A stretch of DNA of 64,000 nucleotides from NCBI GenBank assembly GCA_902564695.1, contig CACFCB010000003.1, forward strand, positions 1 through 64,000, given 5' to 3'. This DNA is from an uncultured Prochlorococcus sp. Lineage in GTDB: Bacteria; Cyanobacteriota; Cyanobacteriia; PCC-6307; Cyanobiaceae. Below the pieces are notes generated by a model that was given only the letters and a program-made list of their open reading frames with translations, was not told where the DNA came from and did not search any database. Made by a program: the position numbers and the translations under genes. Position 1 is the first letter of the stretch. Every line of letters begins with the position of its first letter. Shown in pieces: positions 49,598-57,529 of the stretch.

Positions 49598-49671
49598 CGG
49601 GACGTAGCGCAGTTTGGTAGCGCACCACTTTGGGGTAGTGGGGGTCGTGGGTTCAAATCCCGCCGTTCCGA
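49598..49671 (+). tRNA. tRNA-Pro(GGG)
   Basis: Acceptor CGGGACG/CGTTCCG, anticodon arm CCACT-TTGGGGT-AGTGG (anticodon GGG), T-arm with GTTCAAATC loop, discriminator A. Confidence 0.95.
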
Positions 49672-51924: not shown

Positions 51925-52923
51925 TTATAATAGATAATCTTTGGTATATAGTTTTACAATCCTCCTAGAAGCATTAATTTCAATTGTCGTATCAGAATTA
52001 ATGCTAGATAGTGAATGTTGCGGAATTGATGATTGAATCATACGAATAAAATCAGCTAAATTCTTTCCTATTAAGGCAGAGCCTTTCATCTTCAACATTT
52101 CTAGCTCTTGTTGTGTTTTCCATTGAATTGTATTATTAAAGTCTGTAGATTTTAAATGAACGATTTTATCAAATTTATTCCAAATCTTACTGTAGTCTAA
52201 AAGTTTACTTTGAATAAGATTTCGATATTTTTTTTCCTCATAAGTTAATGATAAATTTATGTCATCAGATTCATATATATTTCCAGTTGGAAAATCAGAA
52301 ATTGGTTCACAACCAACAAACCATCCCTCTAAAATTATAATTTTTGTATTTATTTCCATCCATCCTGATCTATCACCCTTCCCATCCCTAAGGGACTTAT
52401 CAAAATGAGGACTTTTTAAAATACCAGTATCCATAAAAGTATCTAAAGCATAATTCAATAAATCTAAAGAATGACTTCCTGGGAAGCCTCTTGGAACATT
52501 CCAGGGATTCCCATGCATTGCAATATCCATTTCAATTCCAGGTAAATAGAAATCATCCAAAGATATAACCTTAATATCTAAATTCAAATCTTTAGCTACA
52601 TTATTAATCCATGATCCTAATGTAGATTTTCCAGAGCCAGGAAGTCCAGAAAAACCTATAATTTTTGGATAATTACACTTTTTAAGATATTCCTCTAAAA
52701 GTGAAAAAATTGGGAAAGACAAAGACCATTTCCAATCTAAATGAGTATTTCGCTGCCAATATCCTTCTATGATTGACTCTCTTTTAAAATTTGACCACTC
52801 CTCTAAAAAAAGTATTGGATCAATATTCAAACCTTCAAGGAAAGACTGATAAGAATCAAAATCAAAAAGAAATTCGTCTCTTATAAATCTAGGAAATACG
52901 GATTTAAAATCATTATTAATCAT
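51925..52923 (-). CDS. P-loop kinase, probable glycerate kinase (GLYK-like)
   Basis: IIGFSGLPGSGKSTLGSWINN (Walker A), ISLDDFYLPG, MHGNPWNVPRGFPGSHSLDLL, ILEGWFVGC. Confidence 0.85.
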   Translation of the reverse strand: MINNDFKSVFPRFIRDEFLFDFDSYQSFLEGLNIDPILFLEEWSNFKRESIIEGYWQRNTHLDWKWSLSFPIFSLLEEYLKKCNYPKIIGFSGLPGSGKSTLGSWINNVAKDLNLDIKVISLDDFYLPGIEMDIAMHGNPWNVPRGFPGSHSLDLLNYALDTFMDTGILKSPHFDKSLRDGKGDRSGWMEINTKIIILEGWFVGCEPISDFPTGNIYESDDINLSLTYEEKKYRNLIQSKLLDYSKIWNKFDKIVHLKSTDFNNTIQWKTQQELEMLKMKGSALIGKNLADFIRMIQSSIPQHSLSSINSDTTIEINASRRIVKLYTKDYLL

Positions 52924-52932
52924 TATTAATTA

Positions 52933-53724
52933 TTATATATTTTTTAAAATCTCTTCTATGCTATTTGACCAACCCTTAGCATGTGGAGCATTAGCTAATC
53001 TAAATAGACCATTATCAATACCACTTTGCAAATACTTATTAGGTCCATTTCTACCTGGTATTACAATAGATATATCTGCATATTCAAGTAACGGAAGATC
53101 ATTTTGAGAATCACCAAGGGCAATAATATTTACATCTTCTTTATTTAAATACAGCTTTAACTTATTAACAGCTTCCCCTTTATGACTTAAATTAGATAAA
53201 AGGTGACTCATCCGATTCCCCTTAAATATATGTACATTATAATTATTACAGAGAGTTATTAGCTTATCAAAAATTTCATCAGGTGGATTCAAGAAAGGAA
53301 CACTCCAATGTCTATCTAAAGCTCTAATAATTTCATTATTAGATAAACCTGTAAGATCGAAAATTTCTTCATTGCTTAAATCATTTAAAGGTATTAAACG
53401 GTAGCCAACTTCATTAGATAAATTGGATAAAATTATCTTTAATTCTAAATAACTTTTTCCTAAGATTAATTCCCACTCAGATGAATCATTATTACTAATC
53501 CCATAAACCGCAGCACCATTTTCAACAATATAAGGATCAAATAATCCATTTTCTTGTCTAAAATACCTAACCTCAGAAGCAGTTTTACTAGTACAAGGAA
53601 TTACAGGAATTGATAAATCAGCTAACAGGCTTAAAGTCTTTTTGGCAGGTGAAATATCATAGTTCTCATCCATTAATGTTCCATCTAAATCAGTAACTAT
53701 CCAATATTTTGAATCATTTGGCAT
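52933..53724 (-). CDS. gpgP: HAD phosphatase, glucosyl-/mannosyl-3-phosphoglycerate phosphatase
   Basis: IVTDLDGTLMDENYDISPA, IPCTSKTASEVRYFR, IALGDSQNDLPLLEYADISIVI. Confidence 0.85.
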   Translation of the reverse strand: MPNDSKYWIVTDLDGTLMDENYDISPAKKTLSLLADLSIPVIPCTSKTASEVRYFRQENGLFDPYIVENGAAVYGISNNDSSEWELILGKSYLELKIILSNLSNEVGYRLIPLNDLSNEEIFDLTGLSNNEIIRALDRHWSVPFLNPPDEIFDKLITLCNNYNVHIFKGNRMSHLLSNLSHKGEAVNKLKLYLNKEDVNIIALGDSQNDLPLLEYADISIVIPGRNGPNKYLQSGIDNGLFRLANAPHAKGWSNSIEEILKNI

Positions 53725-53729
53725 AAAAA

Positions 53730-55481
53730 CTAATTCATCAATGATATCCAGACTACTTGATAAGGATTAAGTTTAAAATTATTAGGGTCTAAATAAGAAC
53801 CTGTAATATTATCTAACAAACGCATATTAGAAAAATCTTTGAACAATTCAATTTCATTTGACAAATGAACCCATAAGACGTTATCCGATATATTACAAAA
53901 GACAAAAACTCTATCTTCAGCTGAACCTCTTTTAATAACAACACAATTAGGAATATTAGTTTTTAAACATTCCATTAATGCTTCAGGGTGAAATGCCTTG
54001 AGTCGTCCTCTTACTTTAATAATATGACTAAGGTATGAAATATTTCTACTAGCTGGAGAATCAAATTTTTTTAATCTTTCAAGTAATTTATTTGCCTCAA
54101 ATTTCTCTCGATTTAAATCTCTCCTTTGACCAGTTTTCCTAAAAGTATCTAAGTCATTAGGTGAAGCTAGAATTGTTGGAAGATAAAAAGCTGGAACCCC
54201 TTTTAATGACAAGGTAAATAGTTGACTGAGCAAGAATCTTTCAAATTGAAAGAGAGTAATATCTGATCCAATATCTGACATAGCACTCCACCAACTAATG
54301 TTTAATTCATAAGGCTGATCTTGACCGTTTGACAGACGTCTATGACTAACAAGACCCCCTCGTTTTTCTGACTCAACCAAAAGTTTGTGTATTCTGTCAT
54401 TTTCCATCATTCCTTCTAATGCCCTCAAGCCAATTCCGTCGTGAGAAGAAGTAAAATTAAGAAGTGATGTATTTTTTGGGAGATTATTCCAATTAGATAT
54501 CCATTTATTTAATAAGTCTGTTTGGCCGGTATAAATAGCTTCTAATAATAAAGGAGGAAGAGTAAAGTTATAAGCTAGGTTAGCCTCATTTCCATCAATT
54601 AAATAAGAAAGATTTTCAGTTTCAGGAACATTTGTTTCTGTAATTAATACCGAAGTCGGTTTAATAGCTTTCAAACATTTATTTAATAGTTTCACAATTG
54701 AATGTACTGGTTTTAAATGTAAGCATGTAGTATGAGGTTCTTTCCAAATAAAAGCAATTGCATCTAATCGAATCCAGTCAGCACCATTATTTACATATTT
54801 AACTAATAATTTTAAAAATTCCAAAAATATATAAGGATTTTTCCAATCAACATCTATTTGATCAGGGCCAAACGTAGTCCATACATTTTTAAAACCATTA
54901 TTAGTTTTTATATTAGTAAATAGAGAAGAGTTCCTTGGTCTAATAACTTGCTCCCAAATGTCAATTTGTGAGGGTGCAACTATGTAATTACATCCAGGTT
55001 TATCTGAATTTATAAATTGATGAACCCAAGGATGAGAAGAAGAGACATGATTTAATACAAGATCAGCCATTATCTTGTAATTTTTTGATATATTTTTTAA
55101 ATCATTCCAACTTCCAAATGATTCGTCTATTTTTTCATGACTAGATACAGCAAACCCACCATCACTTGAAGAAGGTAAAAAAGGTAAAATATGTATCACT
55201 GAGGAAAGACCACTCAATCTACTCTTTAAAAATTCGTCTAATGTTTTTAAAGTTGATTCATTTTCCCTATAAATTGAATCTGGGTAAGTAATCAAAATAA
55301 CACTTGAGGAATCCCAAATCGAATCAATTTCTGCTTCATTGATTCCTCTATTAACACGATATGGATCCAAAATCTGCAACAATTGAGACCACACTAAATT
55401 GATTTCTTCTTCAGAGTGACCATGGTAAATTTCCCTGAGAGATACTCTCAACTCTTCTAATTCTCTATCCAACTCAGACAC
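53730..55481 (-). CDS. GH13 sucrose-phosphorylase-like enzyme, probable glucosylglycerate phosphorylase
   Basis: IMADLVLNHVSSSHPW, GADWIRLDAIAFIWKEPHTTCLHLKPVHSIVKLL, VLITETNVPE, FTSSHDGIGLRALEG. Confidence 0.82.
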   Translation of the reverse strand: MSELDRELEELRVSLREIYHGHSEEEINLVWSQLLQILDPYRVNRGINEAEIDSIWDSSSVILITYPDSIYRENESTLKTLDEFLKSRLSGLSSVIHILPFLPSSSDGGFAVSSHEKIDESFGSWNDLKNISKNYKIMADLVLNHVSSSHPWVHQFINSDKPGCNYIVAPSQIDIWEQVIRPRNSSLFTNIKTNNGFKNVWTTFGPDQIDVDWKNPYIFLEFLKLLVKYVNNGADWIRLDAIAFIWKEPHTTCLHLKPVHSIVKLLNKCLKAIKPTSVLITETNVPETENLSYLIDGNEANLAYNFTLPPLLLEAIYTGQTDLLNKWISNWNNLPKNTSLLNFTSSHDGIGLRALEGMMENDRIHKLLVESEKRGGLVSHRRLSNGQDQPYELNISWWSAMSDIGSDITLFQFERFLLSQLFTLSLKGVPAFYLPTILASPNDLDTFRKTGQRRDLNREKFEANKLLERLKKFDSPASRNISYLSHIIKVRGRLKAFHPEALMECLKTNIPNCVVIKRGSAEDRVFVFCNISDNVLWVHLSNEIELFKDFSNMRLLDNITGSYLDPNNFKLNPYQVVWISLMN

Positions 55482-55550
55482 TCTTTAAAGGAAACAATCT
55501 TCACTACTTCATCGTAGCTCCCACCTTGAATCTGTAGCACTTTTTATTGA

Positions 55551-56738
55551 ATGGATTTTCAGCAAGGTTTAATTACAACAATTCATGAGTATGGATTAGC
55601 AAAAGATCCAGTTACTCAATTAAATAAAGACTTACTAAAGCGTCCAACAACAATACTTATCCCATGCCTTTTTGATGAATTCAGTAGGCCTGCATTAAAA
55701 CTAATAAAAAGCACATTAAAGGAATTAAAAAATTTAAATCAACTTGTCATAGCCTTAGCAGCAAACAATAAAAATGAAGTTTTACAAGCTAGAAAATATT
55801 TCAATGAGATGCCATTCCCAGTTCATGTCCAGTGGACAAATAGTCCTTCTGTAATTGAATTGCTAAAAGATCAAGAAAAAAATGGTCTTGATCTATTGGG
55901 TGTTCCTGGAAAAGGCTGGGCAGTTTGGCAAGGGGTGGGCGTGAGTACAAAAAGCTCTGAAGTAGTAGCGTTATTTGATGCTGATATCAGAACATTTAAC
56001 TCATTCTATCCAACAAGAATGTTGACTCCATTGTTAGAAAAGTCTAATGGAATTTCTTATGTGAAAGCATTTTATAGTCGTTTATCCCTTGAAACCAATG
56101 CTCTTCAAGGAAGGGCAACGAGATTATTTGTAGGACCATTGCTTTCAAGTTTGGAACAATTAATTGGTAATGCTCCATTCCTGCAATATTTACAATCTTT
56201 TAGATACCCCCTCGCTGGTGAATTTGGCTTTACAAGTGACCTAGCAATGAACTTAAGAATCCCCTGTGATTGGGGTTTAGAAATAGGTCTACTCTCAGAA
56301 GTTTATAAAAATGTAAGGATATCTAGAATCGCACAAGTAGATCTTGGGATTTTCGACCATAAACATAAAGAAATAGGTACAAAAGCGAGTGAGGGTCTAC
56401 AAAAAATGTGTACTGAAATTTTATCAAGCGTATTACGAGGTTTAATGGAGCATCAAGCTGAAACACTTAGTAGTTCACAACTAGCAAATTTAGAAGTTTT
56501 ATATAGAAGAGTTGGAGAAGATAGAGTTAAACAATTTAGTTTAGATTCATCTGTAAATCAGTTACCATATAGCAGACATAAAGAAGAACTAGCTGTACAT
56601 ACTTTTGGAAAATTATTAAGGCCTGCAATTAATAAATTCCTCGAATCACCTGTAAAACAACAATTACCTTGTTGGTCAAGAGTTTTAGATTGTGAAAGTA
56701 AATTACAAGATGATTTAGAATTAGCAGGTGGGAAATGA
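55551..56738 (+). CDS. gpgS: Glucosyl-3-phosphoglycerate synthase
   Basis: GVPGKGWAVWQGVGVS, VVALFDADIRTFNSFYPTRMLTPLL, FPLAGEFGF-like YPLAGEFGFTSDLAM. Confidence 0.9.
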   Translation: MDFQQGLITTIHEYGLAKDPVTQLNKDLLKRPTTILIPCLFDEFSRPALKLIKSTLKELKNLNQLVIALAANNKNEVLQARKYFNEMPFPVHVQWTNSPSVIELLKDQEKNGLDLLGVPGKGWAVWQGVGVSTKSSEVVALFDADIRTFNSFYPTRMLTPLLEKSNGISYVKAFYSRLSLETNALQGRATRLFVGPLLSSLEQLIGNAPFLQYLQSFRYPLAGEFGFTSDLAMNLRIPCDWGLEIGLLSEVYKNVRISRIAQVDLGIFDHKHKEIGTKASEGLQKMCTEILSSVLRGLMEHQAETLSSSQLANLEVLYRRVGEDRVKQFSLDSSVNQLPYSRHKEELAVHTFGKLLRPAINKFLESPVKQQLPCWSRVLDCESKLQDDLELAGGK

Positions 56739-56758: not shown

Positions 56759-57529
56759 TTAAAATAAGGCCTTAATAATTAATGATAAACCAACGAAGAA
56801 AGAAACAATTTGAAAAATTCGCTTAATAAATATAGAACCTTTAATAATAGAAAAATAGGCACCAAGATATCCTCCAATTAGAGAACCTAAAATCAAAATA
56901 GGTATATAATTCCAAATAATATTACCACTTAGGCCTAAAGAAAATGCACCAATACCATTCCAGAAAATACCAACAAAAACTAGTGTATAAGCAACAGAAA
57001 GAGTAAATGATAATTTAAATACAGAAATCATCCAAACTGTAACAAACAACCCTGTACCAGATGAAAGATATCCATTGAGAAAACCAATAATAAATAGACC
57101 AGAAGAACCAAGAATTAAATTAGATTTAGTTAGCTTTATAGATTGGGATAGATTACCAAAATTATTATTAATTAAGGAATATAGGCTAAGGGCTAAAGTT
57201 AATAACCCTAATAAAAGGGTAGAAAATTCTGAAGTTGAAATTGAAGCCATATTAGCTCCAAGAAGAACACCTGGTATACCAGAAATTAAGATTAATAAAG
57301 TATAATTCACCTTGAAATTATTTCTCTTTATATGAGGAACAGAAGCACCAATACCTAGAGCAACACTAGCAACCTTATGGGTTGCTAGTGCTTTAGAAAA
57401 AGGTAATCCAAAAAATAATAAAGCTGGGAGTTGTATTAAGCCAGCCCCTCCACCTGAAAGCGCTGAAATAAAGTTAGAAAATATAGATATAAAAAACAAG
57501 CAAGACTGGGAGAAAATATCAGTATTCAT
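56759..57529 (-). CDS. TauE/SafE family membrane protein
   Basis: ALSGGGAGLIQLPALLFFGLPFSKALATHKVASVALG, SGTGLFVTVWMI. Confidence 0.88.
   Translation of the reverse strand: MNTDIFSQSCLFFISIFSNFISALSGGGAGLIQLPALLFFGLPFSKALATHKVASVALGIGASVPHIKRNNFKVNYTLLILISGIPGVLLGANMASISTSEFSTLLLGLLTLALSLYSLINNNFGNLSQSIKLTKSNLILGSSGLFIIGFLNGYLSSGTGLFVTVWMISVFKLSFTLSVAYTLVFVGIFWNGIGAFSLGLSGNIIWNYIPILILGSLIGGYLGAYFSIIKGSIFIKRIFQIVSFFVGLSLIIKALF

Follow-up and report, generated by a model that had tools for sequence, protein, structure and literature searches.

Glucosylglycerate (GGA) is an anionic, nitrogen-free compound and a major osmolyte of Prochlorococcus, and the genes of its turnover therefore matter for how carbon is stored and exchanged in the open ocean. 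A stretch of 64,000 nucleotides from an uncultured Prochlorococcus sp., here termed the window, contains four neighbouring genes that raise the question whether they make GGA and recycle it, and whether the glycerate kinase among them serves this cycle only. Three genes lie on the minus strand, spaced by only 5 and 9 bp: a GH13-family gene (53730-55481, 583 aa, GTG start), gpgP (52933-53724, 263 aa) and the glycerate kinase gene GLYK (51925-52923, 332 aa). The fourth, gpgS (55551-56738, 395 aa), is on the plus strand. A preliminary description had named these genes and strands and a gap of 69 bp between the divergent starts, and all of this is borne out: the four open reading frames were found intact at the same coordinates, the catalytic motifs are complete in all four proteins, and the gap spans 55482-55550. 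The gap is presumed to hold both promoters, and its length is narrowly kept, most members of the window's genus having 69-72 bp and other Prochlorococcus commonly 56 bp. A promoter scan gave fewer matches than in shuffled sequences and none inside the gap, and an Rfam search found no element at the four-gene locus. The only Rfam match within the whole window is a tRNA gene at 49598-49671.

The GH13 protein has TIGR03852, the sucrose phosphorylase family, as its best-named family match, and its best PDB matches are sucrose phosphorylases as well. It could hence be a phosphorylase of sucrose (or of sucrose-6-phosphate or glucosylglycerol) and sit by chance beside GGA genes, and a bifunctional sucrose-active GGA phosphorylase, XpGP, does exist (PMC11009771). 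However, its TIGR03852 score in the profile search (187.2 bits) is only about half of the cut-off (334.4), which would be expected of an enzyme with a different specificity. Glucosylglycerate phosphorylases are told from sucrose, sucrose-6F-phosphate and glucosylglycerol phosphorylases by a (T/S)ETN motif and a loop A Glu (PMC7178133, PMC6720575). Both signatures occur in the window's protein, the first as ITETN 280-284 (TETN 281-284) at strand beta-5, the second as PYELN 390-394 (wider reading QDQPYELN) with Glu392 in place of Gln, and both TETN and PYE are present in each of the 125 inspected homologues. The loop A motifs N(L/V)D(I/L/V)YQ, GFDVHQ, KXXYYQ and VGAIYQ of the sucrose, sucrose-6-phosphate and glucosylglycerol enzymes are absent from it. 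The Asp nucleophile D240, the Glu acid/base E282 and the third Asp D348 are invariant in an alignment of 12 sequences from across the cyanobacteria. E. coli YcjM, which is annotated and has been reported as a glucosylglycerate phosphorylase (PMC7178133), is 34% identical over 531 residues and scores 308 bits, as compared to 156 bits for the best solved sucrose phosphorylase, the two scores coming from different programs. A chance neighbour acting on sucrose or the other two substrates is thus highly improbable, and the assignment as a GH13_18 2-O-glucosylglycerate phosphorylase (GGaP) is supported by both signatures and the YcjM identity.

The TETN motif, the loop A Glu and the catalytic residues are common to the EC 2.4.1.352 enzymes of GH13_18 from Meiothermus silvanus, Spirochaeta thermophila and E. 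coli (YcjM) described by Franceus and Desmet (PMC7178133). Genes of such phosphorylases often neighbour a glycerate kinase, GpgS or GpgP (PMC7178133), an association shared by the window's locus, whereas ycjM lies in an unrelated sugar operon without GpgS or GpgP. The sequence support thus favours the phosphorylase reading over labels such as sucrose phosphorylase or glucosidase. A glucosyl(mannosyl)glycerate glucosidase, gmgG, is named alongside gpgS and gpgP in marine strains (PMC9361551), and this gene may be the GH13 gene at 53730-55481 under a hydrolase name that its motifs would contradict. Phage GH13 matches were less than 60% identical, and the host names among the matches listed were not cyanobacterial.

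On the synthesis side, the GpgS protein matches NF040724 over its full length with 390.9 bits, which is under the cut-off of 700. A solved mycobacterial GpgS was matched in the PDB search, and the DxD metal site (DADI) and the conserved-His motif (DHKH) are invariant in more than 120 homologues. The assignment as glucosyl-3-phosphoglycerate synthase is supported by these matches; the use of NDP-glucose and 3-phosphoglycerate is predicted, the sugar-nucleotide donor not being settled by sequence. GpgP exceeds the cut-off of NF001217, the MpgP/GpgP-type HAD phosphatases (413.6 against 373 bits), contains the HAD motifs DLDGT, CTSKT and GDSQND and is related to the MpgP of PDB entry 3ztw, as is appropriate for a glucosyl-3-phosphoglycerate phosphatase of the HAD-IIB, MpgP family. 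A phage search gave no phage-borne copies of GpgS. Every marine picocyanobacterium examined in one study had gpgS and gpgP, and none of its freshwater isolates did (PMC9361551), and transcripts annotated as gpgS and gpgP drop in strain NATL1A at low salinity (PMC9606707). The latter study places gpgP of NATL1A and MED4 far from gpgS (NATL1_05721 versus NATL1_09131), whereas in the Prochlorococcus loci analysed here gpgP is found beside the phosphorylase gene and gpgS, and its table may indicate another phosphatase.

The kinase has no Pfam match. In phmmer searches it matches the solved D-glycerate 3-kinases 7xpc (E 6e-14) and 6ckg (E 5e-13), distantly at about 55 bits, and its motifs, Walker A GLPGSGKS, SLDDFY, PGSHS, FDKS, GDR and EGWF, are conserved in 111 homologues. 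These data support a class III, plant-type GLYK, for which 3-phosphoglycerate is the expected product. The P-loop kinase motifs and the expected product are those of the plant-type enzyme (7xpc; Bartsch et al. 2008 as cited in PMC10970406); the window's GLYK differs by its distant relationship and by the position of its gene within an osmolyte cluster. All four protein names of the preliminary description can therefore be kept, GpgS on the basis of the NF040724 and PDB matches, GpgP on that of the NF001217 score, GLYK on that of 7xpc, 6ckg and the P-loop, and the phosphorylase as discussed above.

Gene content, gene order, catalytic and specificity motifs and their conservation can be read directly from the DNA; the reactions and their regulation in the organism are predicted from them. 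GpgS would condense NDP-glucose and 3-phosphoglycerate to glucosyl-3-phosphoglycerate, which GpgP would dephosphorylate to GGA. The phosphorylase would cleave GGA with phosphate to glucose-1-phosphate (G1P) and D-glycerate, and GLYK would convert the D-glycerate with ATP to 3-phosphoglycerate (3PG). As gpgS would have its own promoter, divergent from that of the phosphorylase-gpgP-GLYK unit, the cell could presumably shift synthesis and recycling separately, although the split between the two is not clean because gpgP belongs to the recycling transcription unit, apart from gpgS. It is very likely that the locus serves such a turnover of GGA by synthesis, phosphorolysis and rephosphorylation in Prochlorococcus. 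The preliminary description had proposed the same loop, and it agrees in this with what is published on strain NATL2A. In Coe et al. 2024 (PMC11631117), the compatible-solute genes form a glucosylglycerate operon in which GGA is made by way of glucosyl-3-phosphoglycerate and returned to G1P and 3PG, and which has a putative transporter next to it. Dark-tolerant NATL2A cells have increased recycling transcripts and decreased synthesis transcripts according to the same study, and these opposite shifts fit the divergent gene layout. Judged by this published description, no functional difference between the two loci was found; the nearest loci in our survey are about 80% identical in the phosphorylase. 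The cluster is thus real and well conserved but already known, its operon and recycling having been drawn for NATL2A. The comparison with relatives makes small additions, namely the four-gene form of the Prochlorococcus loci versus the three-gene form of Synechococcus, the retention of GLYK beside a gpgP remnant, and the usually non-adjacent transporter gene.

Within the window's family, 49 genomes including the window's own were surveyed, and the phosphorylase and GpgS are encoded in most of them, the exceptions inside the window's genus all being incomplete assemblies. A second survey covered 80 named loci, of which those extending over 3.5 kb ahead of the phosphorylase gene and over 2.5 kb behind it were considered to have enough flanking DNA. 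In all 58 Prochlorococcus loci of this kind, the genes of GpgS, GH13, GpgP and GLYK have the same order and orientation, which is far beyond chance and shows that Prochlorococcus generally has the four-gene form. The preliminary description had let its reading depend on conservation of this neighbourhood in relatives, and the neighbourhood is indeed conserved there. The genes gpgS, phosphorylase and gpgP are found together in other marine cyanobacteria too. The five non-Prochlorococcus loci with enough flank (four Synechococcus and one cyanobacterial MAG) have only these three genes, whose order is unchanged in the Synechococcus loci analysed, and in Synechococcus WH8102 gpgS and gpgP are SYNW2436 and SYNW2434 (PMC2874817). 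The Synechococcus genomes differ from Prochlorococcus in that GLYK is outside the cluster. In four of the five genomes GLYK turned up at another position, in the fifth it was not found, and it is also apart from the three-gene cluster in the family genomes G044 and G048. Linkage of GLYK thus characterises Prochlorococcus and its close relatives, G041 and G043 included. The GLYK tree does not conflict with this, but several weak forks leave the number of linkage events unsettled.

The kinase is the only one of its function detected: relatives have one GLYK gene each, and searches of 16 genomes gave no glycerate kinase of class I (PF02595) or class II (PF13660). A phage search gave no phage-borne GLYK. 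Four family members without gpgS (G042, G045, G046, G047) retain the kinase. In G046, contig C15 contains only the second half of gpgP (L046:4486-4870), directly before an intact GLYK; the catalytic N-terminal half is missing, the remnant starts after stops, and motif IV is altered to GDSPID. Neither gpgS nor another gpgP nor a close phosphorylase turned up in this assembly, which is 83% complete, so that their absence elsewhere in the genome is not certain. The arrangement resembles a scar left by the loss of the cluster, with the kinase retained, and such a retention after loss of gpgS and the phosphorylase argues for a job of the kinase outside the loop, probably in glycerate salvage. The preliminary description was therefore right about a make/recycle loop, as also described in the part of PMC11631117 on NATL2A, but calling it self-contained was an overstatement, because the only glycerate kinase detected, kept by relatives without the other genes, would serve another glycerate-producing route too.

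One could go further and regard GLYK as a purely photorespiratory or other glycerate kinase whose position in the cluster is incidental, as its retention without gpgS and its unlinked position in Synechococcus and other cyanobacteria would allow. In Prochlorococcus, however, GLYK lies close to gpgP and in the same direction wherever the flank is long enough, the phosphorylase would generate its substrate, and an association with glycerate kinases occurs elsewhere (PMC7178133), which makes this reading very unlikely. A tentative reading, with chances somewhat below even, is that in Prochlorococcus the cell's only glycerate kinase was captured into the GGA recycling unit, which would tie glycerate salvage (e.g. 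from 2-phosphoglycolate) and osmolyte turnover to one promoter. Searches for the photorespiratory enzymes glyoxylate carboligase and tartronate semialdehyde reductase gave only matches below cut-off, and the same searches match in all 14 control genomes. A tartronate semialdehyde reductase-like gene, below the family cut-off, is located just past the window (G000:C3:65311-66150). Its distance to gpgS is about 8.6 kb, much as in several complete relatives, and it is a possible source of glycerate for GLYK.

On its other side, gpgS is followed by a convergent gene of a TauE/SafE-family permease (56759-57529, minus strand, 256 aa; PF01925, E 8e-37), a neighbour that is probably not a core part of the cluster. 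By its position it would correspond to the adjacent transporter in the operon description of PMC11631117, where an external supply has been proposed for NATL2A from transcript changes of dark-tolerant cells that include this transporter. As the TauE gene adjoins the cluster throughout the window's genus, the cluster might mainly serve the uptake and use of external GGA, e.g. from Alteromonas, with TauE/SafE as the carrier. The intact and conserved gpgS and gpgP, however, indicate that synthesis is kept, and an uptake system is an unlikely main function in comparison to the turnover of GGA made by the cell. TauE is within the fetched gpgS-side flank in only 10 of the 58 named Prochlorococcus loci and not always adjacent there, with two more in the other orientation, and the remaining Prochlorococcus and Synechococcus genomes that were checked have it at another place. 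This low adjacency weakens the case for TauE as a dedicated carrier, and a 49% identical TauE persists in G046 without gpgS or phosphorylase.
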